This document shows positions 2,173-62,883 of a stretch of DNA of 64,000 nt, piece after piece. This stretch comes from Aquificota bacterium (GTDB lineage Bacteria; Aquificota; Aquificia; Aquificales; Hydrogenothermaceae). Both the position numbers and the translations under genes were made by a program. The notes beneath the pieces were generated by a model. The model saw only the letters and a list, made by a program, of their open reading frames with translations. It searched no databases and was not told the origin of the DNA. Where the stretch lies: assembly GCA_013153635.1 (NCBI GenBank), contig JAADDZ010000024.1, forward strand, positions 1-64,000. Direction: 5' to 3'. Positions within the stretch are counted from its first letter, which is position 1, and every line of letters begins with the position of its first letter.

Positions 2173-2173
2173 T

Positions 2174-3280
2174 TTAAAAACTATTTACCATTTTTGATAT
2201 ATATTCTATATTTTCTGTTTTAAGGGTTTTGTATATAGGCAAGCTTAATATTTCCTTACAAATACTTTCTGTAATTGGGAAGGATAAATTATTCCATTTT
2301 TTGTAAGCCTTTTGTTTATGCGGTGGGATAGGATAGTGGATTAATGTTTGAATTCCTTTTTGTGATAGATATTCTTGTAGTTTATCTCTTTCTTTTGTTC
2401 TAATGACAAATAGATGCCACACGCTATCAGTTAATATCTTCGGTAAGATTATCTTTTTATTCTGTATATTCTCTAAATAAAATTTGGCAATTTCTTTTCT
2501 TTTTTTATTTTCTTTATCTAAATATTTTAGTTTTACTCTTAAGATAGCCGCTTGTATTTCATCAAGACGGGAGTTTATACCTTTGTAGTTATGCTCATAT
2601 TTTTTATGGCTTCCGTAGTTTCTTAAAGCCTCCACAACTTGTGCTAATTCTTTGTCGTTTGTAGTCACAGCTCCTCCATCTCCTAATGCTCCTAAATTTT
2701 TACCGGGATAAAAGCTAAAACCACTTGCATCTCCTAAATTGCCTGCTTTTTTATCCTGATAAAAAGCTCCATGGGCTTGTGCCGAGTCTTCTATGATTTT
2801 CAAGTTATATTTTTTGGCTATCTCCCATATTTTATCCATTTCACAGGTTTGACCGTATAAGTGAACAACCATTATAGCTTTTGTTTTGGAAGTTATTTTT
2901 TCTTCTATGTTTTCAGGATTTATAAGATAAGTGTCTAACTTTGGTTCAACAAGAATAGGTTTTAAGTTTTCTTCTGTTATTGCTAAAATAGATGCAATAT
3001 AAGTATTAGCAGGGACTATTATTTCATCACCTTCTTCAAATATTCCTAATTCTTTATATCCTCTAATTATAAGCCTTAAAGCATCTAAACCACTTCCTAC
3101 ACCTATGGCATATTTAGCTCCACAATAGTTAGCAAACTCTTTTTCAAACTTTTCTACTTCCTCTCCTAAAATGTACCACCCAGAATTTATTACTTTATTA
3201 ACTGCTTCTTTTATTTCTTCTTCGTATATACTATTTACACTTTTTAAATCTAAAAATTTAATAAAAATTTCGTTAGACAT
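2174..3280 (-). CDS. fdtB: DegT/DnrJ/EryC1 sugar aminotransferase (FdtB/QdtB type)
   Basis: A 368-residue PLP-dependent aminotransferase of the DegT/DnrJ/EryC1/StrS family. Visible motifs are EDSAQAHGA, which contributes PLP contacts, and [15 protein letters not shown] with the Schiff-base lysine at about residue 194. The C-terminal [11 protein letters not shown] and [12 protein letters not shown] segments are also typical. Together with the FdtA-type 3,4-ketoisomerase at 6173-6583, the most economical role is transamination of a dTDP-3-keto-6-deoxyhexose to dTDP-Fuc3N or dTDP-Qui3N in the cytoplasm. A downstream GNAT gene could acylate the amine. Family certain; exact sugar (galacto or gluco) not decided by sequence. 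Confidence 0.85.
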
Positions 3281-3291
3281 TTGTAGTACCT

Positions 3292-3819
3292 TTATGTTTT
3301 TATAAATTTTTTGAATTTTTCTTTGAGCTTAGGATAATCCTCTTTTCTATACAGAAAGTAATAATTTAACTCATCTTCATCAATAAGTTTAGCTCCGTAA
3401 GATTTGTGAAACATTACAACCGTTTTATTATCTTTTCTAACATCAAATTTGACGACTTCTTTGTTTAGTATTTCAAAGATAAATTTGTAGATTAGTAATA
3501 TAGATTCTATTGCATAGAGAGGATTGTTTGAATTTATTATCCAGCTTCCCCATGTACATTCATTTTCCTTTATATTATATACTCGTATAGTTCCTAGTTT
3601 TTCACCTGTCTTTAGATTTTTTATTAGAAAATAATGTTCTTTTTGTTCTTTTTCTCTTTTTTTATATTCTTCTATCCATTTTCTTTGAGAAGATAATTTG
3701 CCATCTACTTTAGACAAAAACCTGTTTAATCTATCATCTAATCTTAATTTTAAGATAAATTCTGCATCATCAGGGGTAACATATTCAAATTTTATGTTTT
3801 TTAATGAAAGGTTTACCAA
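3292..3819 (-). CDS. GNAT-family N-acyltransferase, probably acting on the amino sugar
   Basis: This 175-residue protein has the layout of a GNAT N-acyltransferase of the RimJ/RimL-like subgroup: an N-terminal [16 protein letters not shown] strand-helix, a central [20 protein letters not shown] sheet and a C-terminal [15 protein letters not shown] segment (N..s...yeklGF-like). It sits between the aminotransferase and the acyl-activating ligase genes, so its likely job is to acylate the 3-amino group of the nucleotide sugar, with acetyl-CoA or an ACP-bound acyl group as donor. WecD is a known GNAT precedent acting on dTDP-amino sugars. The donor is inferred only from neighbours. Confidence 0.7.
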
Positions 3820-3821
3820 TG

Positions 3822-5162
3822 CTATTTTCTCCTAATTTTTTTAAATCTATCACCGAAGTTTACTTTGTCTACGAAGTTAATCTTCGTAGGAACTTTATAG
3901 TTATCTAATTTTTCTCTACAATGTTTTCTTATTAGTTTTTTTGCTTCTTTTTGGTCTATATCATCATTTATGATTACATCTGCAACTACCATCTGACCTG
4001 TTATTGGATTTTCTTCTCCATATACCATACAATCTAAAACTGACGGTAATTCTAATATTACTGCTTCTACTTCTGATGGAAGAACTTTTTCTCCTCCTAC
4101 ATTTATAACCTCTTTTTTTCTTCCTATTATCCTTATATAACCGTCTTTTGTTTTTTCTACTAAATCTCCAGTTTTAAACCAACCGTCTTTGGTAAAACTA
4201 TCCATAGGTGCATTTAGATACCCTAAAACTTGTGTTTTACTTTTAATCCATAACTCTCCATCTACGATTTTATATTGGATATTTTCATCTTCTATTTTCA
4301 AGAAAAGTTCATTATCTTTTTTGTTTTTTACTTTTATGGCATTTGTTTCACTTGTTCCAAATTTTTGCTGAAATTCTACATTTGGGAAAATCTCTTTTAG
4401 TTTTTTTAATAGATTTTCTGGCATTGGCTCTGCACCATAAGCTATTATCTTTAGTGAAGATAAATCATACTTATGATAAACACCGCTTATAAGTAGTAGA
4501 TTTAAAAAAGTTGGAGTTGTAGGTAAGACTTCTACTTTGTATTTTTCTATATATTTACTAACTGTTTCTGGTGTTCTATCATCTGGAATTGTTATTGTCC
4601 CACCAATGGATAAAAGTCTTAATAGTGTATCTATCCCTCCTATATGGTCAAATGTTAAAAATACTAAAGAATTGATATTTTTCTCTTTTCTGTTCTTGTA
4701 TATATCGACCATTTTGTCCAAGTTATGCAACATTGCTTTTGGTTTTCCTGTGCTACCACTTGAGAATAAAATTAAACCTGCATTTTGGGATTGTCTTAAA
4801 TTTTCTATTAGGTTATGTTTTTCTGTTTGAGGAAAGGTATCTATTTTTATATTACCATTATTTATCTTTAGAGCTTTGTCGCTGTAAGATTCCTTTAGTT
4901 TTTCTTTTATTTCGCTTTCTTTGTCTGATATTATAGGAACTATGATGTTTTTGTTCTTGTAAAGATAAAAAAATAAAGCTATATTTTCAAAGGAATAATC
5001 ACCTAATATAGCGATGACTTCCCCTTTTTTTATATCTTTCTCTAAAAGAGTTTCAAATTCCTGAATTTTGTCGTATAGGTTTTTGTATGAATACTCTTTA
5101 TTATTCCAGATGATAGCTGTTTTGTTACCGAAAGTTTTGAACTTTTCAAGTAACCAGCTCAT
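3822..5162 (-). CDS. Acyl-activating AMP-forming ligase (ANL superfamily)
   Basis: A 446-residue adenylate-forming enzyme. Motifs seen in order: LILFSSGSTGKPKAM (phosphate-binding A3 motif), LPTTPTFLNLL, YGAEPMP, GTSETNAIK, DGWFKTGDLVEKTKDGYIRI (A7) and GRKKEVINVGGEKVLPSEVE (A8 hinge). A C-terminal FKKIRRK carries the catalytic A10-type lysine. It is somewhat shorter than typical acyl-CoA synthetases of about 500 residues. The gene overlaps the FabG-like reductase by 4 bp and lies near an acyl carrier protein gene, so loading of an acyl chain onto that carrier, or onto CoA, for sugar acylation is plausible. The acyl substrate is unknown. Confidence 0.82.
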   Translation of the reverse strand: MSWLLEKFKTFGNKTAIIWNNKEYSYKNLYDKIQEFETLLEKDIKKGEVIAILGDYSFENIALFFYLYKNKNIIVPIISDKESEIKEKLKESYSDKALKINNGNIKIDTFPQTEKHNLIENLRQSQNAGLILFSSGSTGKPKAMLHNLDKMVDIYKNRKEKNINSLVFLTFDHIGGIDTLLRLLSIGGTITIPDDRTPETVSKYIEKYKVEVLPTTPTFLNLLLISGVYHKYDLSSLKIIAYGAEPMPENLLKKLKEIFPNVEFQQKFGTSETNAIKVKNKKDNELFLKIEDENIQYKIVDGELWIKSKTQVLGYLNAPMDSFTKDGWFKTGDLVEKTKDGYIRIIGRKKEVINVGGEKVLPSEVEAVILELPSVLDCMVYGEENPITGQMVVADVIINDDIDQKEAKKLIRKHCREKLDNYKVPTKINFVDKVNFGDRFKKIRRK

Positions 5163-5866
5163 TTAACAACTCCACCTAAATATACAATCTGTCCTGTTAT
5201 AAAATCACTTTTATCGTCTATGAAAAAATCAATCACATTTACAACATCTTCAAATGTTCCAAATCTCCTTATTGCTTGTCTTTCTAATAAAGCATTTATT
5301 TTTTCTTCTGGCACATTTTTAATTAGGTCTGTAGGGACAGGAGTTGGTCCTACTGCATTTACAGTTATGCCAAAGTCAGCTAATTCCCGTGCCATGATTT
5401 CTGTAAAATTTTCTATTGCGGCTTTACTCGATGCGTATATGGCTTCCCCTTCTAATCTTAGAGGTGTTGCAACTGTAGCAAAATTTACAATTCTTCCTTT
5501 CTTATGTTTCATCATAACTTTTGCTACTTCCCTTGTAAAAAGAAATGTTCCGTAAAAGTTAGTCTTAAATATGTTATCTACAGTTTTATAAGGAGTAGTA
5601 ATAATATGGTTCATAGAGGCAATACCTGCATTGTTAAGTAGTATATCTATTCTTCCAAATTTTTTCCTTACATCTCTAATCATATTAACTACTGCTTTTT
5701 CATCACTAACATCTAAAGTATAATGAGTATAATTCTTATGGTTAATACTTCCTTCTCCTCTGCTACAACCTATAACAATGTTGCCTTTATCTAAATAATA
5801 CTCTGATAAAGATTTACCTATTCCTTTCCTTGTCCCAGTTATTACAAATACCTTGTCTTTAACCAT
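5159..5866 (-). CDS. SDR-family oxidoreductase, FabG-like 3-oxoacyl reductase
   Basis: A 235-residue short-chain dehydrogenase with the Rossmann motif TGTRKGIG (residues 10-17), an NNAG motif near residue 83 and the catalytic YASSK pair near residue 150. The C-terminal DFITGQIVYLGG is typical of FabG-like proteins. It overlaps the acyl carrier protein gene by 8 bp upstream and the ligase gene by 4 bp downstream, so the three are probably translated together. Known family members reduce 3-oxoacyl-ACP to 3-hydroxyacyl-ACP. Inference: it makes the 3-hydroxyacyl group used by the neighbouring acyltransferase. A role as a sugar ketoreductase is an alternative. Confidence 0.8.
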   Translation of the reverse strand: MVKDKVFVITGTRKGIGKSLSEYYLDKGNIVIGCSRGEGSINHKNYTHYTLDVSDEKAVVNMIRDVRKKFGRIDILLNNAGIASMNHIITTPYKTVDNIFKTNFYGTFLFTREVAKVMMKHKKGRIVNFATVATPLRLEGEAIYASSKAAIENFTEIMARELADFGITVNAVGPTPVPTDLIKNVPEEKINALLERQAIRRFGTFEDVVNVIDFFIDDKSDFITGQIVYLGGVVK

Positions 5867-6161
5867 CTTTATTTTCCTCTTTTATTAGTTCTTGTATATA
5901 TAAAGATAGCGTTTTTACATCTTTAAAAGGACTTCTAAATCTGCTCATTGCTCTTTCATTAACTAATGTAATTCTATATCCTAACTCATCTTCTATTTTT
6001 TCTTCTAAATCTGTTATAAAGGTAACTAATGCCAGACTATCTAGTAAGCCACCTTCACCATAGATTTTTGTGTTTTCATCTGGATTTTCTAACTCTTTTA
6101 TATTTAATTCTTCATTTAATTCTTTTAGGCTTTCAATAATAATATTTTTTATTGATTCCAT
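5859..6161 (-). CDS. Acyl carrier protein, dedicated to the polysaccharide locus
   Basis: A 100-residue acidic protein with the phosphopantetheine-attachment motif GGLLDSLAL, serine at residue 42. Helix-rich flanking segments fit the four-helix ACP fold. It is longer than the fatty-acid AcpP (about 78 residues) and has a basic insertion (NERAMSRFRSPF) after helix II. It lies between the ketoisomerase gene and the FabG-like gene and is not next to fab genes, so it probably serves acyl modification of the surface sugar. Carrier function is well supported; the acyl group is not known. Confidence 0.82.
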   Translation of the reverse strand: MESIKNIIIESLKELNEELNIKELENPDENTKIYGEGGLLDSLALVTFITDLEEKIEDELGYRITLVNERAMSRFRSPFKDVKTLSLYIQELIKEENKDG

Positions 6162-6172
6162 ATTTTCCTCCT

Positions 6173-6583
6173 TTATTTTGCTAATTTCAAAAATTCATTA
6201 TAGTCTCTTATATAGTCTTTTTCATCATAGTATTGAGAAGCTAAAACTAGGCAAACTGCACCTGTAGAAAAGTTATCAAGTTCTCTCCATATCATTGTAG
6301 GTATGTAAAGCCCATAGTAAGACCTATTTAGGTGTACTCTTTTCCTTTCAAAACCATCGTCTAATATGACATCAAAACTTCCACTAACCGCTATGATGAG
6401 CTGTTGTAATTCTTTATGAGCATGTCCTCCTCTAGCTTCTCCACCGGGAACATCGTACAGATAGTAAACCCTTTTTATTTCAAAAGGAATATGTCTATTT
6501 CCTTCTATAAATGTTAAATTTCCCCTTTTATCATGTATTTTTGGAAGTTCAATAATTTTGCATAAGTCTAATCTTCTATTCAT
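6173..6583 (-). CDS. fdtA: FdtA/QdtA-type dTDP-6-deoxy-hexose 3,4-ketoisomerase
   Basis: A 136-residue single-domain cupin of the WxcM-like family. It shows the N-terminal LPKIHDKRGNLTFIE, the histidine motif GGHAHKELQQLI and a C-terminal SQYYDEKDYIRDY, all typical of FdtA and QdtA. These enzymes convert dTDP-4-keto-6-deoxyglucose into the 3-keto isomer (galacto or gluco), the substrate of the DegT aminotransferase at 2174-3280. It is the first gene of the sub-cluster. A TATAAT-like box on the minus strand at 6595-6600 lies just ahead of it, so it may have its own promoter. Confidence 0.88.
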   Translation of the reverse strand: MNRRLDLCKIIELPKIHDKRGNLTFIEGNRHIPFEIKRVYYLYDVPGGEARGGHAHKELQQLIIAVSGSFDVILDDGFERKRVHLNRSYYGLYIPTMIWRELDNFSTGAVCLVLASQYYDEKDYIRDYNEFLKLAK

Positions 6584-6648
6584 TTTGGGAAACCATTATA
6601 TTACACAATTTTCGATATAATCCTTTTATATTTTTGTATTACTTCATA

Positions 6649-8943
6649 TTAATACTTATATCCGTAATAGATGTCTTTTGGTTTTATATAGTTTAATACA
6701 TATGCTATGTTTTTAATTTTATATTCGTTAGCAAGTTTATCTATATTTTGGATAAAAGCCTTTTTCGAATAACCTGCTTTTAGTACCACTAAAGATACAT
6801 CTGAATCTTTCATAAGTAGTATAGTATCAGCTACTAAATCAATAGGAGGGGCATCTATAACTATATAATCATATCTTTCTTCCAAAGTATTTAAGACTTC
6901 CTTTAATTTTTGAGAAATAAAAAAATCACTTGAATTAGAGTTGACCTTACCTACAGGAATTATATCCAAGTTTTTAATATGGGTTTTTTTTATGACTTGG
7001 TCTATCGATTTTCTACCAATCAATACATCTAAAATTCCTTCAGGCTTTTGAAGCTTAAAGTATTCATGAACTTTAGGTTTTCTTATGTCTAAATCCAAAA
7101 GTATTACTTTTTTGTCTGGAGAACTTAAAATAGGAGCTAAGTTTACAGCAAGGGTTGTTTTTCCTTCATTGTCTATATTAGAAGTTATTACTATTTTCTC
7201 TCCTTTTTCTCCTTTTGGAAAGAGAACTTGCAAGTTTGCTCTTATTTTTCTAATTGCTTCGGTGAATATAGAATTTGGTTCTTTAATAGATAATATTTTT
7301 TTCTTTAATTTTCTTCTGCTAACTTTAGGTACTAAACCTACAATAGGTAAAGTAGATAATTTTTCTATGTCTTCTTTTGTTTTAACTGTATCATTTAAAA
7401 ACTCTCTTACATAGCCATAAAAAGTTCCAAGCATAAGTCCAACTAATAAGCCAATAGCTAAGATAATTGGTTTTTTAGGCTTAATAGGAGTTCTTGGTAG
7501 AATAGCTTTATCTATTATTCTATTGTTTGCTACCACTGCCGCCTTTGCCATTGATGTTTCTACTTTTTTCTCGAGTAGATAAGAGTAGATTTTTTCATTT
7601 ACTATGTATCTTCTTTTTAGATTCACAAACTCTCTTTCGTTTTCTGGAAGTTTTCTTAACAATTCATCGTATCTTTTTATTATATTAATTACCGCTTGTT
7701 TTTGATTTTGAATTTCTGCTCTCAAACTGAAGATAGCTGATTTTATACTACTTCTTATACTTTTGATTTTTTCATTGATTTTCTGTACATCTGGGTGCAT
7801 TTCTGTATATTCTGCTAGTAATTCCTTTTTTCTTTCTAAAGCTTTATTTAATCTATCTACTAAAGATATTAGTACAGGGTCATTTATTCCGTATGCTTGT
7901 GGGGAAATATTTTCTATACCGTTTTCTATAACTGTGTTATAAAGTTCATTAATAAGTCTTTCTTTTATTTCTAATTCTGCTAATTTTGTGTCAAACTGAC
8001 TTAGTTTCTGAATAGTTGTATTTATTTCAGTTTCTAAATCCATTAATCTTTTTTCTTTTTTGAAATTTTCTAGTTTAACTTCAGCATCTTTGAGATTTTT
8101 ATTTATAATTTCAAGTTGTTTATTGATAAATTTTAGTTGTTGTTCTGCAGATGAAGTTTTATTTTTAATTGTCTGTTTTATATATTCGGTAGTTAATGCA
8201 TTTACAAATTCTTGTGCCCTTAGAGGTACTGTATCTTGATAAGCAACCTTTACAAGGTATGAATCTTTTGAGGTTTTGAATACATGTAAGTTAGGTAGTA
8301 TTCTAGATATAAATGATAGTTTATCATTTATCTGAAAGCTGTATTCTCCTTTTTCTATTTTTCCTTTTTTCTCTATTTTGATTATTACATCACCAAGGTC
8401 TATATTTTCGCCAAATTTGTGTAAATTTTTGTATTCAAAATTATCTGTAATACCTAATTTTGACAGAAAATTTTCACCGTATAGGAGAACAAATGTTCTA
8501 TCATCTTTTACAATGAGTTTTATACGTTTACCAAAGATTGAATTTTTCTTTACTGCTAAAACTCTAACTTTAAATGGAGAGTTTTTGTACAGTTCTATAT
8601 ATTTTAAACCTTCTTTTTTGTAGTAGCTTACTTTGTATGGGATATGGTTTAAAGCCCTTCCTACCATATATCTTGATTTTAATAAATCCATCTCTGTATC
8701 TAAATTTACTATACTTCCTCCTGATAAAACACTAAGTAAAAGGTCTCTTGTAGGTGTTTGTTTAGTCTCCTTTATCTCTATAGTAGCATCTGTTCTATAG
8801 ATATAAGATGATGTAAATATATAAAAAAGAGCAATTGCAGTACTTACTGCTAAAATAGTTAAAAACCCTATCTTATGGTTTAGGATAGGTCTTAAAAAAT
8901 CCTTAATGCTTGTCTCCTTATAGCTTGTGTATTTTTGCTCCAT
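6649..8943 (-). CDS. wzc: Wzc-like polysaccharide co-polymerase with C-terminal BY-kinase domain
   Basis: A 764-residue inner-membrane protein. An N-terminal Wzz domain starts with a membrane helix at about 28-50. A long coiled coil follows at about 255-470, then a second helix (IILAIGLLVGLMLGTFYGYV) near 490-510. The C-terminal bacterial tyrosine kinase domain has the Walker A motif DNEGKTT near residue 595, the Walker A' VILLDLDIRKP near 616 and the Walker B YIVIDAPPI near 694. The C-terminal tail is short but tyrosine-rich (YYGYKY), as needed for autophosphorylation. It should set chain length and couple polymerisation to export with the Wza-like lipoprotein encoded just upstream. Confidence 0.9.
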   Translation of the reverse strand: MEQKYTSYKETSIKDFLRPILNHKIGFLTILAVSTAIALFYIFTSSYIYRTDATIEIKETKQTPTRDLLLSVLSGGSIVNLDTEMDLLKSRYMVGRALNHIPYKVSYYKKEGLKYIELYKNSPFKVRVLAVKKNSIFGKRIKLIVKDDRTFVLLYGENFLSKLGITDNFEYKNLHKFGENIDLGDVIIKIEKKGKIEKGEYSFQINDKLSFISRILPNLHVFKTSKDSYLVKVAYQDTVPLRAQEFVNALTTEYIKQTIKNKTSSAEQQLKFINKQLEIINKNLKDAEVKLENFKKEKRLMDLETEINTTIQKLSQFDTKLAELEIKERLINELYNTVIENGIENISPQAYGINDPVLISLVDRLNKALERKKELLAEYTEMHPDVQKINEKIKSIRSSIKSAIFSLRAEIQNQKQAVINIIKRYDELLRKLPENEREFVNLKRRYIVNEKIYSYLLEKKVETSMAKAAVVANNRIIDKAILPRTPIKPKKPIILAIGLLVGLMLGTFYGYVREFLNDTVKTKEDIEKLSTLPIVGLVPKVSRRKLKKKILSIKEPNSIFTEAIRKIRANLQVLFPKGEKGEKIVITSNIDNEGKTTLAVNLAPILSSPDKKVILLDLDIRKPKVHEYFKLQKPEGILDVLIGRKSIDQVIKKTHIKNLDIIPVGKVNSNSSDFFISQKLKEVLNTLEERYDYIVIDAPPIDLVADTILLMKDSDVSLVVLKAGYSKKAFIQNIDKLANEYKIKNIAYVLNYIKPKDIYYGYKY

Positions 8944-8952
8944 GTTAACACT

Positions 8953-9717
8953 CTATTGGCTTAAGTATTTTATTTGTACAAAAGGTTGTAATATATTACT
9001 TAAAAGACGGAATGGAGGAGCTATCTGTTCCACAACGACGTTAGATTTTCTTAAGTTTGTAGGTGGGACATATACTATATCATGGGGCTGAAGAATCATT
9101 CTTGCATATTGTAATTCGTCTTTATCTGTAAAATCTACTGTGATTATGGTAGGATTGGCTAAATCACCCCTTATTACCATAACTCTATCTCTTTTTGCAT
9201 AGATGTTGAAGTCTCCAGCCCTAGATAATGCTTCAACTAAAGATATTCTTTCATCAAAAAATTGAACCGCTCCGGGCTTGTTAACTTCCCCTAAAACATA
9301 TACTCTTTGGTTTAATATCTCTATATATACGTGAGGATTTTTTAGATATTTAGATAGTTTTTCTTCTATTAAATCTGCCGCTTCTACCCTTGTTAAACCT
9401 TGGATTTTAACTTCACCTATCAGTGGTAAAGTTACTGTTCCTTGAGGAGATACCAAAAGACCTAAATCCCTTTGAAAAGCATCAAACTTTCTAGTACTTA
9501 GTTCAGGGTGTCTAAATACTACGATAGATATTCGGTCACCGGGTACTATTTTGTACTCTACAACGAATTTTACAGGCTTTTCTACTTGTTTCTTTAACTG
9601 CTTTTCTTCTTTTGAGGAGTCATCTTTTGATTTCTCTTGGAATAGCTCATATTTAGTACTACAACCAAAAGTCATAATTGAAAAAATAGCTAAGATAGAA
9701 ACAAATAATTTTTTCAT
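8953..9717 (-). CDS. wza: Wza-like outer-membrane polysaccharide export lipoprotein
   Basis: I place the start at the ATG at 9717, because it gives a clean lipoprotein signal (MKKLFVSILAIFSIMTFGCS) with the lipidated Cys at residue 20. An earlier in-frame ATG at 9762 would put 15 polar residues in front. The mature protein has a Poly_export domain (YKIVPGDRISIVVFRHPE) and an SLBB domain (VYVLGEVNKPGAVQF). The C-terminus (FRLLSNILQPFVQIKYLSQ) could be an amphipathic membrane helix like that of Wza. The length of 254 residues is shorter than E. coli Wza (about 380), suggesting one fewer ring domain. Located between the wecA-like and wzc-like genes. Confidence 0.87.
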   Translation of the reverse strand: MKKLFVSILAIFSIMTFGCSTKYELFQEKSKDDSSKEEKQLKKQVEKPVKFVVEYKIVPGDRISIVVFRHPELSTRKFDAFQRDLGLLVSPQGTVTLPLIGEVKIQGLTRVEAADLIEEKLSKYLKNPHVYIEILNQRVYVLGEVNKPGAVQFFDERISLVEALSRAGDFNIYAKRDRVMVIRGDLANPTIITVDFTDKDELQYARMILQPHDIVYVPPTNLRKSNVVVEQIAPPFRLLSNILQPFVQIKYLSQ

Positions 9718-9748
9718 ATTATATTTCCATATTTGAAAGGATTTTAAA

Positions 9749-10786
9749 TTATTTGTATGCATATATAAGTTTATACACCATTTTCCTAATTTTTTCTACT
9801 CTTTCTGTGTTTAGATTAAATAGTATATAGAAAAAAGTGTAACTTATTGCAAAAATTAAAGCTGTTATTGTTAATATTTGGGTATTCTCTTTAAAGAGAA
9901 CAGCTATGATGTCTATTCCAAAAACAATAAGTAGTAAAAAGATTGATGATATAGGGTTAGAGTTTATCTTCTTACATAAGATACAGTGTAAGTGGTTGTT
10001 ATCAGGGGCAAAGGAACTTCTTTTTTCAAACAGTTTTCTTCTTAGTATAGAGAACAATGTTTCCCATACTGGATATATAAGTAAAACCAATGGGAACCAA
10101 GGAGATATTTCAGGGTGTCTATTTACCATAAGGATAGAAAGTTCTGCCAGCATAAAACCTAAAAAATAAGAGCCTGAATCTCCTAAGAAGATTAGACCTT
10201 TTGGGAAATTAAAAACGAAAAAGCCTGCTGTAGCCATAGCCAAGACCAAAGATACAAATAGAATGTCAACATCGTTGTAAATGTAGCTTACATAAGCAAA
10301 GGATAGAAATGTAAATATAGCTACCCCTGATGCCAAGCCGTTTAGACCATCAATAAGGTTTACCGCATTTACTATACCTACAACACCAATAATTGTAAAT
10401 AGAAGAGCAAATATAATATGAAATTTTATATACCCAATATCAAAAACGATGGCGTTCAGTAAGACAATACCTAAAAATGCTGACAATGCCATAAAAATAA
10501 AGCGGATTTTTGGTGGAATATTTTTTAATAAATCTTCAAAGAAACCTGCCAAAAATATTGGTAAAGAAGCTATATATAGGGATACTCCTAGAGGGTTGCT
10601 CATTACAAATATACTTGACAAGTATATAGCTATCCCCCCAGACCTTGGAGTAGCTTTTTTATGTAAGCCGTGGGTTTTATCTATATCATCTATAAAAATA
10701 CCTGTTTTTTGAGATAGTTTTATCATTAGAAAAGTTAGAAAAGCTGATAGAATGGGAATATATATAATACTTTCAATTAATTCCAT
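9749..10786 (-). CDS. wecA: WecA/TagO-type undecaprenyl-phosphate sugar-1-phosphate transferase
   Basis: A 345-residue multi-spanning membrane enzyme of the MraY/WecA family. Diagnostic motifs are DDIDKTHGLHKKATPRSGG, NLIDGLNGLASG, FLGDSGSYFLGF and the cytoplasmic histidine motif NNHLHC. It would start repeat-unit synthesis by moving HexNAc-1-phosphate to undecaprenyl phosphate. The start ATG at 10786 has a strong GGAGG ribosome site. It is the first gene of the minus-strand polysaccharide operon. The leader contains a promoter overlapping a palindrome (10907-10935) and a possible 10-codon leader ORF (10832-10864). Confidence 0.9.
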   Translation of the reverse strand: MELIESIIYIPILSAFLTFLMIKLSQKTGIFIDDIDKTHGLHKKATPRSGGIAIYLSSIFVMSNPLGVSLYIASLPIFLAGFFEDLLKNIPPKIRFIFMALSAFLGIVLLNAIVFDIGYIKFHIIFALLFTIIGVVGIVNAVNLIDGLNGLASGVAIFTFLSFAYVSYIYNDVDILFVSLVLAMATAGFFVFNFPKGLIFLGDSGSYFLGFMLAELSILMVNRHPEISPWFPLVLLIYPVWETLFSILRRKLFEKRSSFAPDNNHLHCILCKKINSNPISSIFLLLIVFGIDIIAVLFKENTQILTITALIFAISYTFFYILFNLNTERVEKIRKMVYKLIYAYK

Positions 10787-11040: not shown

Positions 11041-11095
11041 AAGAATTTAAGATTATCAAAAATTTACAGTTAAACTTAAACTTTTGGAGACAAAG

Positions 11096-13474
11096 ATGGT
11101 ACATATATTTTCTCTATTGTTTACTTTATTATTTGTTTTTTTAGTATATGGGGATAATAGATGTTTAGATTGTCATCAAGGTATAGAAAATATTAGAAGT
11201 CCTGATTCTCAAATGATGAAAGAGATACTAAAGGTAGCAGAAAAAGCAGGATACCCAAGCAATACATGTATCGTATGTCATGGAGGTAATCCATCTGGTA
11301 AAACAAAAGAAGAAGCTCATCAAGGCACTGTTGACTTTTTTTTTAAAAATAAAGGTCCTAAAAACTTCTATCCAGACCCGGGAAGTCCATGGATAAATAA
11401 GCATACCTGTGGTATGTGCCATCAAGAACAGGTAAGAACCCAGTATACATCTTTGATGTTTACAGAAGCAGGAAAAATTCAAGGGACTTTATGGGGGTTT
11501 GGAGGTATTAATGGATATAACCACGACATAGGAAACTACGATGTACAAGAGATAGATATTCATAATGTTCTTGGTACTCAAAAGTATAAAAAATATATAC
11601 AAAAATTAAAACAGCTAGAGCCTCAAGTTTTTCCTAAAAAGATGAAATCTCTCCCTAAAGCTCCTACCGCTGAAGAAGTCCAAAAGAACCCACAGTTAGC
11701 TGTATATACATACATAAGACAAGAATGTCAAAGATGTCATACAGGAAATCAAGGAAGAAAAAAAAGAGGGGACTATAGAGGTATGGGGTGTTCAGCTTGT
11801 CATATTCCTTACTCCAATGAGGGATTTTATGAAGGCAAAGACCCTTCGATACCTAAAAATCAACCGGGGCATTTATTGGTTCATACTATTCAGGCTACAA
11901 GAGAAGCAAAAGTTACTGTTCATGGAATAACATATTCAGGTATTCCTGTGGAAACCTGTACCACTTGTCACGATAGAGGAAAAAGGATAGGTACATCTTT
12001 TCAAGGACTTATGGAAACAGCCTATAAATCTCCTTTTTTAGATGATGGTTCACCTCAACCAAAACTACATACAAAATACTATATACATTTAAAAGAAGAC
12101 ATACATATGAGAAAAGGTATGCTATGTCAAGACTGTCACACCTCCAATGATGTTCACAGTGATGGTACTTTAGCTGGTACTACATTAGCTCCTGTAGAGA
12201 TAGAATGCCAAGATTGTCATGGTACTCCTGACAAGTATCCATGGGAATTACCTTTAGGCTATGCAGATGAAGTTGATGGTAAAGTTCCACCAATGGACGA
12301 ACCTAGGGGAGTTACGAAGAAACTTCTTGAAGTTATGAAAAAAGGAACAGTATACGATGCTGAAGATGGTTACCTCTTAACAGCGAGAGGAAATCCTTTG
12401 CCAAATGTTGTAAAAAAAGATAACAAAGTGATAGTCCACACAGCAGGAGGTAAAGATATAGAGCTAAAACCTTTAAAATTACTTGTAGAAACAGGAAAAC
12501 TAAATACAGAAGCAATGGTAGCTATGGTTCATGCAAAAGCTCATATGGAAAAGTTAGAATGCTACACCTGTCATGCTACATGGGCTCCCCAATGTTACGG
12601 CTGTCATGTAAAGATAGATTATTCAAAAGGTGTAAAACATGTAGATTGGGTATCTGTAGGTCATGATCATGATGAGAATGGTCTTACAGCAGATGCTAGA
12701 GGAGATTTAGACAAACATCTTATAGAAGGAGAGATAAAAGAAGAAAGGAGTTATTTAAGATGGGAGAATCCTCCTTTAGCTGTTAATGGTGAACATAGAA
12801 TTTCTCCAGCTATCCCCGGCTGTCAGACGACAGTTACAGTAATAGGAAAAGATGGAAAACCTTTGCTTTTAAATCATATATTCAAAATTCCAAATGTAGA
12901 GGGAGCAGGAGAAGAAGGACAATTAGCTATAGATATTTCTCCTGTTCAGCCTCATACTATTCAAAAGGAAGCTAGAAGCTGTGAGAGTTGTCACAATAAT
13001 CCTGTATCAATGGGATATGGCATAGAAGGAGGAAAAATCTATTCAGACCCTTCAAAACCGTATATAGTAGACCTAATGACTTCAGATGGTAGAATTCTTC
13101 CAAAAATTTTTAAAGTACAGATAAATGCTATACCAAACTTAAAGTATGATTGGTCTAGATTTGTTTCACAAGAAGGTAAACAACTGCAAACAGTTGGTCA
13201 TCATTTTAGTGGTTCTAGACCACTAAACAATGAAGAACGGTCTATTTTGGATAGGAGGGGTGTTTGTTTATCTTGCCATCAGGAAATTCCTGAACAGGAT
13301 TTAGCTATTAATCTTCTTAATCATATAAAGGAAGTATCAAATATAAAAATCGACAAAGATAAGCATAACAATATACTACATAAGTTAGTCTTAATTGGAG
13401 CATGGAGTCAGCTACTTATCGCTTTTCTTATACTAGTAGGGATAGTATTTATCATAAAAAAGCTAAAAAAATAA
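11096..13474 (+). CDS. Twelve-haem c-type cytochrome with C-terminal membrane anchor
   Basis: I choose the ATG at 11096, since GGAGA at 11086-11090 is its ribosome site; an upstream in-frame TTG at 11084 overlaps that site. The signal peptide is VHIFSLLFTLLFVFLVYG. The 792-residue protein has twelve CXXCH haem-binding motifs: CLDCH, CIVCH, CGMCH, CQRCH, CSACH, CTTCH, CQDCH twice, CYTCH, CYGCH, CESCH and CLSCH. A C-terminal helix (LIAFLILVGIVFII) followed by KKLKK anchors it in the inner membrane, with the haem domain in the periplasm. Likely role: electron transfer with the 7-haem protein encoded next. I do not recognise a named enzyme family; the HTIQKEARSCESCH segment recalls multihaem cytochromes of deltaproteobacteria. 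Confidence 0.85.
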   Translation: MVHIFSLLFTLLFVFLVYGDNRCLDCHQGIENIRSPDSQMMKEILKVAEKAGYPSNTCIVCHGGNPSGKTKEEAHQGTVDFFFKNKGPKNFYPDPGSPWINKHTCGMCHQEQVRTQYTSLMFTEAGKIQGTLWGFGGINGYNHDIGNYDVQEIDIHNVLGTQKYKKYIQKLKQLEPQVFPKKMKSLPKAPTAEEVQKNPQLAVYTYIRQECQRCHTGNQGRKKRGDYRGMGCSACHIPYSNEGFYEGKDPSIPKNQPGHLLVHTIQATREAKVTVHGITYSGIPVETCTTCHDRGKRIGTSFQGLMETAYKSPFLDDGSPQPKLHTKYYIHLKEDIHMRKGMLCQDCHTSNDVHSDGTLAGTTLAPVEIECQDCHGTPDKYPWELPLGYADEVDGKVPPMDEPRGVTKKLLEVMKKGTVYDAEDGYLLTARGNPLPNVVKKDNKVIVHTAGGKDIELKPLKLLVETGKLNTEAMVAMVHAKAHMEKLECYTCHATWAPQCYGCHVKIDYSKGVKHVDWVSVGHDHDENGLTADARGDLDKHLIEGEIKEERSYLRWENPPLAVNGEHRISPAIPGCQTTVTVIGKDGKPLLLNHIFKIPNVEGAGEEGQLAIDISPVQPHTIQKEARSCESCHNNPVSMGYGIEGGKIYSDPSKPYIVDLMTSDGRILPKIFKVQINAIPNLKYDWSRFVSQEGKQLQTVGHHFSGSRPLNNEERSILDRRGVCLSCHQEIPEQDLAINLLNHIKEVSNIKIDKDKHNNILHKLVLIGAWSQLLIAFLILVGIVFIIKKLKK

Positions 13475-55585: not shown

Positions 55586-56404
55586 ATGTCTTTTCAGTTT
55601 ACAGAAGAGCAGATTAAAAGATACAGTAGACATATAATACTGCCAGAAGTAGGTGGTAAGGGACAAAAAAAGTTATTAGACTCTAAGGTTCTTGTTATAG
55701 GAGCAGGAGGTTTAGGCTCTCCCTCCTTGTATTATCTTGCCGCCGCTGGAGTAGGGACTTTAGGTATAGTAGACTTTGATGTTGTTGATTTTTCTAATTT
55801 ACAACGTCAGATACTACACTCTACAGATAGAGTAGGAATGCCAAAGGTTGAATCTGCAAAGAAAACTATCCAAGCTTTAAATCCAGATGTTAATGTTATA
55901 GCTCATAACGAAAAGATACATAAGAATAATGTGATGGACATAATAAAAGATTATGACATAGTGTTAGATGGGTCTGATAACTTCCCTACTAGATTCTTGA
56001 TAAATGATGCATGTTTCTTTTTAGGTAAGCCTCTTGTTTCTGCGGCTATACTAAGATTTGAAGGACAGCTAACTACTTTTGATTACAGGGATAAAAATAA
56101 TTCTCCTTGCTATAGATGTCTGTTTCCAGAGCCTCCACCTCCGGGGCTAGTACCTAGTTGTCAAGAGGCAGGTCTATTAGGAGTTGTAGGTGGTATAATG
56201 GGAACTCTACAGGCGAATGAAGCTCTAAAACTGATTTTGGATATAGGTGAGCCTCTTGTTGGTAAACTTTTGGTATTTGATGCTCTTCATACAGAATTTA
56301 ATGTTGTTAAACTAAGGAAAGATAAGGGCTGCCCTTTATGTAGCGAAAATCCTAAAATCAAAGAGTTGGTAGAGTACGAGCAAGCTTGTGATGTTAGATT
56401 TTAA
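55586..56404 (+). CDS. moeB: MoeB/ThiF-type adenylyltransferase
   Basis: A 272-residue E1-like enzyme: RYSRHIILPEVGGKGQKKL, VIGAGGLGSPSLYYLAAAGVG (ATP site), DFSNLQRQILH and the zinc CXXC pairs CYRCLFP and CPLC near residues 172 and 253. It adenylates the C-terminal Gly of ThiS, MoaD or similar sulfur carriers. No such partner or rhodanese domain lies beside or in it; tusA follows instead, 15 bases on. MoeB or ThiF cannot be told apart by eye. Confidence 0.87.
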   Translation: MSFQFTEEQIKRYSRHIILPEVGGKGQKKLLDSKVLVIGAGGLGSPSLYYLAAAGVGTLGIVDFDVVDFSNLQRQILHSTDRVGMPKVESAKKTIQALNPDVNVIAHNEKIHKNNVMDIIKDYDIVLDGSDNFPTRFLINDACFFLGKPLVSAAILRFEGQLTTFDYRDKNNSPCYRCLFPEPPPPGLVPSCQEAGLLGVVGGIMGTLQANEALKLILDIGEPLVGKLLVFDALHTEFNVVKLRKDKGCPLCSENPKIKELVEYEQACDVRF

Positions 56405-56419
56405 ATAGAGGTGGTGTAT

Positions 56420-56662
56420 ATGGAAAACATACAGATAGATAAAGAATTAGACTTAAAAGGTGAGGTTTGTCCATTTACTTTTGTGAAAAGTAAACTGATT
56501 TTAGAGCAGATGAATCCCGGAGAGATATTGAGAGTTATACTTGATTATGAGCCTTCAGTAGAGAATGTGCCTAAAAGTATGAAAGAAGAAGGTCAAGACA
56601 TCTTGGAAGTAAAACAGATAGATAAAGGACTGTGGGAAGTTATAGTAAGGAAGGTTAGATGA
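56420..56662 (+). CDS. tusA: TusA-like sulfurtransferase
   Basis: An 80-residue protein with the typical DLKGEVCPFTFVKSKLILEQMNPG, whose Cys-Pro carries the persulfide. It belongs to the TusA/SirA family. Start at ATG 56420 is chosen since GAGGTGG ends just before it; an earlier GTG at 56411 overlaps that site. It hands sulfur to DsrE/TusD-type partners encoded next. Its stop overlaps the dsrE-like start by 4 bases. Confidence 0.9.
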   Translation: MENIQIDKELDLKGEVCPFTFVKSKLILEQMNPGEILRVILDYEPSVENVPKSMKEEGQDILEVKQIDKGLWEVIVRKVR

Positions 56663-56961
56663 AACTTTTGATAGTTCTTGCAAGTAATCCATATTCTCAC
56701 GATTTTAATACAGCTGTAAAACTTGCAAATGCAGGTATAGAGAGAAATCATACTGTTTTTCTCTTTTTTATGGCAAATGGTGTGTATTCTCTAGTTAGAG
56801 AGGAAATAAAAAATCTTGCAAAGTTAGGAGCAAAAATCTATTATTGTGCGCATAACGCTAATCAGAGAAAAATAAAACCAGAAGATTGGGCTGAAAGCAG
56901 TAGTATGTACGGTTTATCCAAGCTAATGAGTGAAGCAGACAAAGTTATTATGTTGGATTGA
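56659..56961 (+). CDS. dsrE: DsrE/TusD-like sulfur-carrier subunit
   Basis: A 100-residue DsrE-fold protein. YYCAHNANQRK holds Cys63 at the position of the active Cys in DsrE and TusD, where a C-x6-R pattern is usual. It would accept sulfur from TusA. DsrE pairs with DsrF and DsrH, encoded by the next two genes; the same order occurs in TusDCB. The stop is close to the dsrF-like start. Confidence 0.8.
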   Translation: MKLLIVLASNPYSHDFNTAVKLANAGIERNHTVFLFFMANGVYSLVREEIKNLAKLGAKIYYCAHNANQRKIKPEDWAESSSMYGLSKLMSEADKVIMLD

Positions 56962-56966
56962 GGAAA

Positions 56967-57320
56967 ATGGCAAAGAAAAAAAATATAGTGTTTATACTTA
57001 AATCAAATCCTTTTAGCTGGAAAGCTTTTGAGGCATTGAGGCAGGCTGTAGGAGCTTCTATAGAACATCGTATCACCTTTATCTTCTTAAAAGATGGAGT
57101 TTACACTCTTACTGACTGGAAGCCTCAACTAATAGGTATAGAGCCGATAGATAAATCGATAGAGTCTTTAGGAATGATGAATGCTGAAATAGTTGCAGAA
57201 AAAGAGGCGGTAAGAGAAAGAGGGATTTTATTTAAAGATTGGGGAGTTGAAATTCATATAAAAGATAAAGATGAGATTTGCGATTTAGTCAAAGATGCAG
57301 AGGTTGTAATAACATGGTAA
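56967..57320 (+). CDS. dsrF: DsrF/TusC-like protein
   Basis: A 117-residue DsrE-superfamily protein starting MAKKKNIVFILKSNPFSW. The family's KDGVYTLTDW and a C-terminal VVITW are present. Its only Cys is in EICDLV, not at the usual active place, so it may be structural. ATG 56967 follows GAGG; a TTG at 56958 overlapping the previous stop is an alternative start. Middle subunit of the presumed hexamer. Confidence 0.72.
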   Translation: MAKKKNIVFILKSNPFSWKAFEALRQAVGASIEHRITFIFLKDGVYTLTDWKPQLIGIEPIDKSIESLGMMNAEIVAEKEAVRERGILFKDWGVEIHIKDKDEICDLVKDAEVVITW

Positions 57321-57556
57321 ACACTGTTTGGATTATAAAAAGAATGGCAGATTTTCCAGAGCTAGAACTCCTTGATGAAGAAGACCTTATAATACTCGTA
57401 CAAGATGCTGTTTTAAGAACACCTTCTCTCGATAATTGGTATGCTTGTGAAGAAGATACCATAGCAAGAGGAGTAAAAATATCACAGGACAAGTTAGTAT
57501 CTTATACAGATATAATAGATATTATAGAAAAAGCGAACAAAGTTGTTGTATGGTGA
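57314..57556 (+). CDS. dsrH: DsrH/TusB-like protein
   Basis: An 80-residue protein. [25 protein letters not shown] and a C-terminal KVVVW fit DsrH/TusB; the Cys lies ahead of the ARG motif as in DsrH. The start is ATG 57314, overlapping the previous stop (ATGGTAA); a longer reading to 57278 adds 12 residues that do not fit. Last subunit of the DsrEFH set. Confidence 0.78.
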
Positions 57557-58532
57557 TTTGATAAAAATAGGAATTACCTTAGGAGACCCTTGTGGAATCT
57601 CTCCAGAAATTCTTTTAAAATCTCTTAAATATCTACCCAAAGCTACCTATGTGATATATGGTTCTAAATCTATTTTAGATAAACTTTCAAAACAGTTAGA
57701 TATACCTTTTGAACCTCTTTTGATAAAAACACCCTTAGAAATAAAAAAAGAGGGAATCTATCTTATCAATATTTATGACCGAGATTTTGAGGTAGGGAAA
57801 CCTTCTGTAGAATCAGGAAAAGCATCGATTCTCTTTTTGGAAAGGGCTACTAAGGATATTTTAAACAAAAACCTTGATGCTTTGGTTACCCTTCCAATAT
57901 CAAAAGAATATACGATGAAGGCAGGATTCAAATATGCTGGTCATACAGATTTTTTGGTAGAAAGTTCCAAAGCTAAAGAATACTCAATGGTTCTAGCTTG
58001 TAACCAATTAAAAGTAGCGTTAATTACTACCCATATTCCTCTAAAAGAAGTTCCAAAATATATAACAAAACAAAGAATCATATCCAAAATCGAGCTGATA
58101 AATAAAGAATTAACCACAAAATTTGAGATAAAATCTCCTAAAATCGCTGTCTTAGGACTGAATCCTCATGCTGGAGATGGCGGTAATATTGGAAAAGAGG
58201 AGATTGAAATAATTCAACCTGCATGTGAAGTTTTAAGAGAAAGAGGTATATATGTGACCAATCCCCTATCTGCTGATACCGCTTTTTGCAGGCGCAAAGA
58301 GTTTGACATATTTGTCGCTATGTACCATGACCAAGGGCTTATACCTTTAAAAGTTCTATGTTTTAGAAAAGCTGTGAATATAACCTTTGGTTTACCTTTC
58401 ATTAGAACTTCTCCAGACCACGGAACAGCTTTTGATATTGCAGGGAAAGGTCTAGCAGACCCTTCCTCTTTTATTGAATCTGTGAAATTAGCTCATAGTT
58501 TAATACTTAAGGCAAAAAACACAAGCTTTTGA
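57543..58532 (+). CDS. pdxA: 4-hydroxythreonine-4-phosphate dehydrogenase
   Basis: A 329-residue Pdx[20 protein letters not shown], the metal-site [34 protein letters not shown] and [13 protein letters not shown], with [14 protein letters not shown]. Vitamin B6 synthesis. The start is uncertain: TTG 57543, TTG 57546 or TTG 57558 (just after the dsrH stop). Its last 33 bases overlap the convergent lipoprotein gene. Confidence 0.92.
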
Positions 58533-58985
58533 TAATTTAAAATCATAGAAAAATTCAGAAGGAAGAGATTTTTCTCTTGTTATACTTAGAGTTGGAACTA
58601 TGAGTCCCCCTTGGGATACTTTTATAAATACTTCTTTTTCTTTATTTATCCTAAAGATTTTTATGTCACTGTAACTTGCTCCATGAGTAGGTACATTTAT
58701 ACCACAGTAGATAAGGTGAGCGCCCGGTTGAGCAGGGACAATTAAAAATGTTTCATCGTTTAAAACGCCGATAAAGTTCTCATCTAAAAAACAGTTAACA
58801 GGTTTTGAGACTCCTCTTATCCCATCATCTCTATACACATACACTAATGTTTTGACCTTCTTTTTTATAGAGTTTACCAAATAGTATGTTCTTTTTTCAT
58901 CGTAAGTTGACACTTTTTGGCTACAGGACGTTAGTATTGAGGCTGTTAGTATTGCAATTGAAAAAATTGCGGCTTTTTTTATCAT
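58500..58985 (-). CDS. Small lipoprotein, possible DUF2846
   Basis: A 161-residue protein with a lipoprotein signal ([12 protein letters not shown]). The core [26 protein letters not shown] resembles the DUF2846 family of small lipoproteins with the layout seen in that group. A late Cys pair (KACVFCLKY) ends it. No function known. The 3' end overlaps pdxA. Confidence 0.65.
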
Positions 58986-60531: not shown

Positions 60532-61725
60532 ATGAAAACTGTAAAAATATTTTTAATCTTTATACTTTTTGTAGTTTTTGGCTGTAGTTCAGACAACTCT
60601 CAAGAAGACGAATGTAAAATAGAACTAATATCAGCTATAGAAAATGAAGACTTTCAGTTAGCACTCTCTATATTAGAAAATGAAAGCTGTAACTTTACAC
60701 AAGAAGAAAAAATCATAAATAAAGCTCTCATATATAACATTCAAGGAAATGTAGACTTTTTAGAGATTTCTGCATATTTAGCTGAATTAATATCCGAAGA
60801 TGAAAAATATAGAAAAATATCCCTATACCTATCTACAGATGCTTCATCTCAAAATCTGCAAAATATAGAAGAAGCTTTGCAGGTTTATTCTCAAATAAAT
60901 AGTGATGATGATTTAGTAACCTACTGCTATACGTACAGAGAAGACCTAACTAGAAAAGAACAAGACATATGTTATTTTGCTGGATTATCGTTTCTTACAA
61001 AGTCAGTTCATACCCTTTTTATAGGGTTAGCAAATGAAGGAGGAAGTACTGCAAAACAGGTAGCAAATAAATTTTTACTGCAGGCTAAAAGGTACACCTT
61101 TTGTACAGAAGATAGAAATCAAAACAATATAATAGATGAGGTTGATGCCCTTTTATGTGCTGTAAAATACTCACAGGGGGATAACTGTGATATTGATAAT
61201 TTACTTTTAACTACAAAAGATATAACAATCGATGTTCAAGGTAATGTATACAACTATTCTCTTTTAAAGATAAAAATAAAAAGTGACGAAGACCAATGCT
61301 CTATATATGAAGATGTGATACTGTACAAACTCTACAGTAAAGATACAAATAAAATAATACTCACAGAAAATTACTGTGACCAAAATTATAGTCCTTGTGA
61401 TACTCCAGATGAAAATAGCTGTTTTCCCTGTCCTGTATTTATAAATGGACAGATGATTCCTATAATAGACACAGTTACATACTCGTTAAACGCTTCATAC
61501 AAAACTATATGGAGTTCTTTTGATGCTCCTGAAGATACAAACATGGCAAAAGTCTCTAGAGACTTCTTAAAAGAGATATGTTTACCAAAACCTGAAGACT
61601 GTATATGTGGACGGACTGACCCATGTACAGAAGAAGATTTAGATTACTATATAGTTCCCCTTACAATAACAGAGGAAGCTTTGATAAATTACCTTCAAAC
61701 CCACTACCAAGAGGAAGAGGATTAA
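60532..61725 (+). CDS. Cys-rich secreted lipoprotein with EF-hand-like loop, unknown family
   Basis: ATG 60532 gives a clean lipoprotein signal (MKTVKIFLIFILFVVFGC). A longer in-frame reading to GTG 60436 has no signal. The mature protein of about 380 residues has 16 further cysteines, densest in residues 280-380 (YCDQNYSPCDTPDENSCFPC, ICLPKPEDCICGRTDPC), suggesting many disulfides. Near residue 195 DRNQNNIIDEVD has the residue pattern of a calcium-binding EF-hand or dockerin loop. The downstream barrel protein, starting right after the stop, carries DRNQNGYVEDD. I do not recognise the family. Confidence 0.65.
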   Translation: MKTVKIFLIFILFVVFGCSSDNSQEDECKIELISAIENEDFQLALSILENESCNFTQEEKIINKALIYNIQGNVDFLEISAYLAELISEDEKYRKISLYLSTDASSQNLQNIEEALQVYSQINSDDDLVTYCYTYREDLTRKEQDICYFAGLSFLTKSVHTLFIGLANEGGSTAKQVANKFLLQAKRYTFCTEDRNQNNIIDEVDALLCAVKYSQGDNCDIDNLLLTTKDITIDVQGNVYNYSLLKIKIKSDEDQCSIYEDVILYKLYSKDTNKIILTENYCDQNYSPCDTPDENSCFPCPVFINGQMIPIIDTVTYSLNASYKTIWSSFDAPEDTNMAKVSRDFLKEICLPKPEDCICGRTDPCTEEDLDYYIVPLTITEEALINYLQTHYQEEED

Positions 61726-62883
61726 ATGAGAAAAATAAATTATATTTTTTTACTGCTTTTCATAGTATTACTAAAAATATCAAACGCCCAGATATATGAA
61801 TACCCAGTTATTTACAAAGACCCAAGGATTATGGGAAGGGGAGGGGTGAATATAGCTTTAGGAGGCTATAGTACATCTGTACTATACAATCCAGCCTCTA
61901 TTTCTTTGAATAAGAAGAACAAATATTTAGTAGATATGCTTAGGATTAATCTAAGTTATGATGAAAACGGGATACCTTTCTTTAATGACATACAAGATGC
62001 GGTATCAACTGGAGATAGAAATCAGAACGGTTATGTAGAAGATGATAGATTGAAAGAAGTTTTAAATGTTTTAAACAGCTACAGCGGTCAAACCGCACAT
62101 GCAGGGTGGGATACTGTTGTTGCTATCTCTAGAACAGGGAGCGATATAGCTTATTCTTTTGGTCTTTTAATATCTACACGGTACACCGCAAAGATATACA
62201 AATACTCTCATACAGAAGGCGTGATAAACGTATACTTTGATAACTACATAGTACCTTTTGCTGGAGTTTCTTTTAACTTCTTTCAAAAGAAACTTTCCTT
62301 AGCTCTATTGTGGAAATATATATTTAGAAGGTCTACATATGACAATGTATCAGCGAGAGAGATAGCATATAAAGGATACGAAATAGACAGCTATATTATA
62401 GACGACTTAGGAGATGAAGGAAAATCAAACGCTTTTGATATAGGAGCTGTGTATAGAATTCCTCTCTTACCTATCCTGAAACCAACCTTAGGAATATCTA
62501 TTCAAAACATTGGAAATCCTGATTTAGGTGAATTAGGAGAATTTCCGCAAACGATAAATGTAGGATTTGGTATGAATCCTATTATCAAAGGATATAGAGG
62601 CATAAAATTAGGAATAGATTACATAGATATAACAAAAAACATAGATACAGACAAGGACACCAAAAAAAGACTTAGATATGGAATGGAGATAAAAGTAATA
62701 GATAATCCTATATTAAACTTTACAGTAAGAACAGGTATCTACCAAGGGTATCTTACCGCAGGGATAGAAGCTAGATTAACAGTCGTTAGTTTTATATTTA
62801 CAACCTACGCAGAAGAGTTAGGTATAGAATCTGGACAAGACAAAAACAGAAGGTATATATTATCAGCTGGATTGTCATGGTGA
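61726..62883 (+). CDS. Outer-membrane beta-barrel protein (PorV/TraF-like), partner of the Cys-rich lipoprotein
   Basis: A 385-residue protein with a signal peptide (IFLLLFIVLLKISNA) and an N-terminal IMGRGGVNIALGGYSTSVLYNPAS motif similar to the PorV/TraF/PorP outer-membrane group. The rest is amphipathic strands ending RYILSAGLSW, typical of barrels. Near residue 95 DRNQNGYVEDD is an EF-hand-like loop, echoing the one in the upstream lipoprotein. The two genes are contiguous (stop and start abut), so they likely act together at the outer membrane. Confidence 0.7.
   Translation: MRKINYIFLLLFIVLLKISNAQIYEYPVIYKDPRIMGRGGVNIALGGYSTSVLYNPASISLNKKNKYLVDMLRINLSYDENGIPFFNDIQDAVSTGDRNQNGYVEDDRLKEVLNVLNSYSGQTAHAGWDTVVAISRTGSDIAYSFGLLISTRYTAKIYKYSHTEGVINVYFDNYIVPFAGVSFNFFQKKLSLALLWKYIFRRSTYDNVSAREIAYKGYEIDSYIIDDLGDEGKSNAFDIGAVYRIPLLPILKPTLGISIQNIGNPDLGELGEFPQTINVGFGMNPIIKGYRGIKLGIDYIDITKNIDTDKDTKKRLRYGMEIKVIDNPILNFTVRTGIYQGYLTAGIEARLTVVSFIFTTYAEELGIESGQDKNRRYILSAGLSW

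Follow-up and report, generated by a model that had tools for sequence, protein, structure and literature searches.

The window considered here, a stretch of DNA of 64,000 nucleotides, is contig C24 of a 1.69 Mb genome, the closest relatives of which are listed under Hydrogenothermaceae (Aquificota). It carries two genes that abut exactly, the TAA stop codon of the first (61723–61725) being directly followed by the ATG start of the second (61726), and the open reading frames, coordinates, and abutment given in the original prediction were all recovered. The first gene, starting with ATG at 60532, encodes a lipoprotein of 397 amino acids, and the second encodes an outer-membrane barrel. The features of both genes are listed in Table 1.

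Table 1. Coordinates of the lipoprotein–barrel gene pair and of its features in the window
Feature	Position	Strand	Basis
Lipoprotein gene, first of the pair	60532..61725	+	no Pfam/NCBIfam family; homologues found
Signal peptide, lipobox VFGC (VVFGC), lipidated Cys18	60532..60585	+	sequence; Cys18 invariant
Predicted helical-repeat (TPR-like) region, residues 23–214	60598..61173	+	AF2 helices; profile matches to TPR proteins and BamD
DRNQNNIIDEVD, EF-hand-type loop, residues 194–205, leading into helix 202–214	61111..61146	+	sequence, AF2
Predicted beta insert, residues 224–301; C256, C282, C289, C297, C300	61201..61434	+	AF2 strands; Cys positions
Predicted C-terminal helices, residues 311–390; conserved end segment ITEEAL-x-x-YL	61462..61701	+	AF2 and alignment of relatives
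Outer-membrane barrel gene, 385 aa	61726..62883	+	remote PorV/TraF_2/FadL-fold family
N-terminal hatch, residues 22–66; NPA at 55–57 (61888–61896)	61789..61923	+	AF2 and alignment
DRNQNGYVEDDRL, acidic loop in putative extracellular loop 1; insertion that many relatives lack	62014..62052	+	sequence, AF2, alignment
Putative extracellular loops 5–7 with connecting strands; signature D-x-x-D...KR, TYAEE-x-G...GQ...RR	62623..62841	+	family alignment

Judged by its sequence, the first gene product is a bacterial lipoprotein, with a signal peptide II lipobox and an invariant cysteine; Cys18 occupies the sole invariant column across 25 relatives. It matched no family in Pfam or NCBIfam and no Pfam EF-hand model, so that its description as an unrecognised lipoprotein stands. 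The 16 mature cysteines attributed to it are indeed present in addition to Cys18, and the barrel has none. Across the lipoprotein family the number of cysteines varies from 1 to 17, which rules out cysteine richness as a family-defining trait and marks the 16 cysteines, as far as the relatives' sequences tell, as a lineage feature, cysteine richness being limited to some lineages.

The AF2 model of the lipoprotein is confident (pLDDT 90.2, pTM 0.90), and by this prediction the protein is a helical-repeat protein with a beta insert, which lies between the N-terminal and the C-terminal helices. A search of the model against PDB structures returned no fold match below E 0.18. With the profile built from the 25 relatives, matches were obtained to consensus TPR proteins (3.4e-6) and to BamD (7.9e-6), the similarity to the latter spanning profile positions 7–204. 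The protein resembles BamD and other TPR lipoproteins in being a lipid-anchored helical repeat, but it differs from them by the extra beta insert and the C-terminal helices; in a search of the genome with the BamD model TIGR03302 the window lipoprotein was not matched, and another gene (C11:13292-13942) scored above the cut-off. Some relatives match Pfam EF-hand models, and several proteins from Desulfobacterota (L058, L061, L062, L063, L065) bear a canonical-looking EF-hand loop at the C-terminus, in the ITEEAL-x-x-YL segment, where the Aquificota lipoproteins keep only the helix that follows this loop.

The barrel of the window has no match in Pfam and a weak one to the NCBIfam model PorV_fam (NF033709; 25.3 bits, E 1e-5), which does not reach the curated cut-off of 90 bits. 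All 30 relatives compared match PorV_fam (E <= 0.01), and some of them match the PorV2, PorQ, and PorV models; in Pfam, 18 of the 30 match TraF_2 (PF13729) and four match the FadL family Toluene_X (PF03349). Among PDB sequences, the barrel profile matched BamG best (E 0.0019), with no other match below 0.01. AF2 predicts 14 strands behind an N-terminal hatch with an NPA motif, in which N55 and A57 are invariant in the family and P56 nearly so; the 14-stranded barrel and the N-terminal NPA hatch, both as predicted, are those of the FadL/PorV fold superfamily, and the hatch is shared with the TraF_2 and Toluene_X barrels. In Foldseek, chains of PorV complexes of the type IX secretion system (T9SS) came first (8gl6 and 6h3i; 1.9e-7 and 7.7e-7), followed by FadL, TodX, and BamG, the matched chain being taken as PorV on the basis of its length and of 6H3I being a PorV complex (PMC10994853). 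The label "PorV/TraF-like barrel" was borne out in this way, and the protein is a remote member of the PorV/TraF_2/FadL-fold superfamily that lies below the curated cut-off of the PorV family.

When the termini are set in the periplasm, as is usual for barrels with an even number of strands, loops 4–7 would face outward. Conservation amounts to 2.4–3.65 in these putative extracellular loops and to 1.2–1.8 in the periplasmic turns. It is unusual for an outer-membrane protein that outward loops are more conserved than periplasmic turns, and the pattern in loops 4–7 suggests that they meet a conserved partner or ligand outside the cell.

The pentapeptide DRNQN, which had been placed at about residues 195 and 95 of the two proteins, begins at residue 194 in the lipoprotein and at residue 97 in the barrel. 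It has been supposed that the two loops arose by duplication and that both proteins share one calcium-dependent assembly mechanism. Such a view is consistent with the common pentapeptide, with 14 identical bases out of 15 at 61111 and 62014, and with acidic loops that are commoner than in shuffled sequences in both families: a strict 12-residue EF-type loop is present in 38/65 lipoproteins versus 8 expected (50 shuffles gave at most 15) and in 18/65 barrels versus 5 expected (shuffles gave at most 11). Against it, a 5-mer in common arises in 12% of protein pairs after shuffling; the nearest orthologous pair has DRNKN in the lipoprotein and DINDN in the barrel (the barrels being 68% identical) and hence no common pentapeptide; and an identical DRNQN in both proteins of a pair was not found among the other relatives compared. 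Over 65 pairs, the occurrence of one loop shows no correlation with that of the other (both in 16, in the lipoprotein only in 13, in the barrel only in 19, neither in 17). Their structural contexts are unrelated as well, the acidic loop of the barrel sitting, in the AF2 model, between two helices of the putative extracellular loop 1. Because shuffled pairs share 5-mers so often and the orthologous pair lacks the match, the shared DRNQN does not go beyond chance; it is mostly a coincidence and no common element. The shuffle test, the orthologue comparison, and the 65-pair contingency thus rule out DRNQN as a duplicated element, and a shared calcium mechanism appears most improbable. Judged by the sequences, each family has its own recurrent acidic loop, found more often than shuffles predict. 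EF-hand and dockerin-type loops bear acidic or amide residues at positions 1, 3, 5, 9, and 12, followed by a helix; the lipoprotein loop has this pattern in its sequence (D194, N196, N198, D202, and D205, with a helix from 202), and the barrel loop, with R at position 12, departs from it. The lipoprotein loop is plausibly a putative metal-binding half-EF-hand.

The conserved pairing, and not the shared motif, is the real finding at this locus. Barrel relatives detected by profile occur in Aquificota, Nitrospirota, Desulfobacterota, and Campylobacterota and in one gammaproteobacterium (Alkalilimnicola), with a patchy distribution in the sampled genomes (25/136 in Aquificota, 41/246 in Nitrospirota, 15/247 in Desulfobacterota, and 7/249 in Campylobacterota). 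The counted loci were chosen by the barrel, except for contig L072, which has a barrel fragment only. A significant lipoprotein-profile match lies directly upstream on the same strand at 69/84 barrel entries; of the remaining 15, eight are truncated at a contig end, five are divergent Nitrospirota, and two represent one locus. In the divergent Nitrospirota (L132-L136), the upstream lipoprotein-like gene was scored only by a filter-free search (E 0.03 to 5e-8). Altogether, a homologous lipoprotein gene precedes the barrel directly, on the same strand, at 74/76 entries with enough upstream sequence, and the co-occurrence of such pairs, to which the original prediction had pointed as something to look for, extends over at least five phyla. 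The exceptions, L050 and L160, are the same locus seen twice, with no lipoprotein beside the barrel; this Aquificaceae barrel (L050:5167-6282) is the single exception found. The flanking genes differ from genus to genus, and a comparison of flanks between genera revealed nothing conserved beyond the pair itself.

After duplicate entries had been dropped, 65 unique pairs remained, for which the lipoprotein and barrel trees are congruent (Mantel r 0.837): 27 of the 36 supported splits in the lipoprotein tree also occur in the barrel tree, with five supported conflicts. In both trees, two pairs from Aquificota (L048 and L167) cluster with those of Nitrospirota (support 0.999 and 0.853), as does the pair of Alkalilimnicola with pairs of Desulfurivibrio type (0.997 and 0.979). 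These identical placements indicate that the pairs cross phyla as units, and, as far as trees can tell, the lipoprotein and the barrel are inherited together in at least five phyla. Whole-pair duplications are found in the genome of the window and in its genus, and Sulfuricurvum has two pairs in tandem.

The reading favoured here, held with slightly less than even confidence, is that the pair forms a dedicated two-protein outer-membrane module in which the lipoprotein is docked on its own barrel. The predicted helical-repeat scaffold of the outer-membrane lipoprotein would be the first component, and the predicted 14-stranded FadL/PorV-fold barrel with its N-terminal hatch the second; docking would most likely involve the conserved outward rim (loops 4–7), and the barrel may anchor or position the lipoprotein, by analogy with BamG holding BamH or PorV its cargo. 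The half-EF-hand loops, if they bind metal, would stabilise the lipoprotein, in some lineages together with disulphides. The job of the module would be to hold or deliver a surface protein rather than to import a small hydrophobic molecule. This proposal is consistent with the near-constant upstream lipoprotein gene, the congruence of the trees, the duplication of whole pairs, the PorV_fam matches of all 30 relatives, the fold matches to the T9SS PorV complex, FadL, and BamG, and the conserved loops. At the same time, the conserved loops could instead be there to bind a ligand, the retained NPA hatch motif of FadL transporters fits transport equally well, and both the five supported tree conflicts and the one genome with a barrel without an adjacent lipoprotein speak against it. 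In an AF2 prediction of the complex as an in-frame read-through fusion (TAA read as Q), both halves were well folded, but the pTM was only 0.57 and the prediction therefore lends no support to a specific interface.

Among known systems, the pair is best read as analogous to BamG2–BamH2 of Bacteroidota, where a FadL-type barrel and its own lipoprotein are encoded in one putative operon (PMC12578637). The statement in the original prediction that no known surface system has this pairing was therefore too strong, since BamG2–BamH2 is comparable. Like BamG–BamH and BamG2–BamH2 (PMC12578637, PMC12611786), the pair combines a 14-stranded barrel of the FadL/PorV fold, whose profile matches BamG, with a partner lipoprotein; unlike them, its lipoprotein is a helical-repeat protein and its hosts are not Bacteroidota. 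BamH chains of the PDB were absent from the matches of the lipoprotein profile down to E 1.

An uptake channel is ranked second, after the two-protein complex, and deserves serious if doubtful consideration. According to it, the barrel would be a FadL/TodX-type channel through which a hydrophobic molecule is taken up, with the lipoprotein as a periplasmic TPR-like helper that receives the substrate or couples it to the next carrier. FadL and TodX are indeed among the best fold matches, and the nearly invariant NPA motif of the hatch is needed in FadL for substrate-induced change (PMC8407342). Moreover, three FadL-like proteins of Treponema pallidum (TP0548, TP0859, and TP0865) combine such a barrel with a presumptively periplasmic TPR-motif domain, fused, however, to the C-terminus of the barrel, whereas in the pair the helical part is a separate lipoprotein (PMC8407342). 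Yet the most conserved loops are the putative extracellular ones, the PorV complex and not a transporter gives the best fold matches, and the neighbourhood of the pair shows no conserved genes for transport or metabolism. Uptake of elemental sulphur through a FadL-like barrel was considered as a guess, since sulphur or iron metabolism is common among the hosts; the paper on elemental-sulphur uptake points towards porins of the OprD type without settling on a transporter (PMC10045233).

The pair might also be an accessory of the BAM complex in outer-membrane protein assembly, a counterpart of BamG and its lipoprotein outside Bacteroidota. BamG is defined as BamA-bound and essential, with an N-terminal tail through the lateral opening (PMC12578637, PMC12611786). 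The profile matches of the barrel to BamG and of the lipoprotein to BamD agree with such a role, but the patchy spread is not what an essential component of BAM would show, a separate BamD above the curated cut-off is encoded in the genome, and the BamD match may reflect generic TPR similarity; the idea is thus improbable. Still less can be said for the barrel as the PorV carrier of a T9SS, with the lipoprotein as a secreted or translocon part, which is very unlikely. The T9SS PorV complex is the top fold match and the weak PorV_fam similarity extends to all members; on the other hand, the window barrel stays far below the family cut-off, its upstream lipoprotein gene is nearly universal, SprA had no match in the genome of the window (in a search run without a positive control), and neither T9SS partners nor other T9SS genes were recognised beside the pair.

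Most work on PorV-type barrels concerns Bacteroidota, in which these barrels serve to carry secreted proteins or to hold lipoproteins at the surface. With a barrel of this type linked to a single family of lipoproteins in Aquificota, Nitrospirota, Desulfobacterota, and Campylobacterota, there is a compact two-protein system for asking about the original role of such barrels, and two gene families left unassigned or only loosely assigned in family databases each acquire a partner. The lipoprotein family and its fixed pairing were not found in the literature searched, to which most subscription journals did not belong. It may tentatively be suggested that a two-gene cassette has spread between distant phyla outside Bacteroidota, its PorV/BamG-type barrel serving to carry, display, or help deliver a dedicated helical-repeat lipoprotein on the cell surface.

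Finally, the genome of the window contains a second, diverged lipoprotein–barrel pair (C19:67702-70012, minus strand; L023:7700-10016), whose barrel is 40% and whose lipoprotein is 31% identical to those of the window. The window copy and its same-genus orthologue form a long branch, and the branch of the second copy in the barrel tree is much shorter; the window copy therefore appears to be the faster-evolving duplicate of the two. A search for plasmid carriage of the pair gave no matches. The other genes of the window include one for a small lipoprotein with a sub-threshold DUF2846 match (58500-58985, minus strand; E 0.0034) and, about 3 kb before the pair, a sulphur-relay-like run of small genes (55586-57556, plus strand; ThiF/MoeB-like, TusA-like, and DsrE-like), named by eye from the sequence. 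A polysaccharide-type cluster (913-10786, minus strand; flippase-like, aminotransferase-like, Wzc-like, and Wza-like), named in the same manner, lies in the lowest-GC part of the window (about 27–31% GC), and at 11084-13474 (plus strand) there is a gene for a multihaem cytochrome-like protein of 796 aa with many CxxCH motifs.
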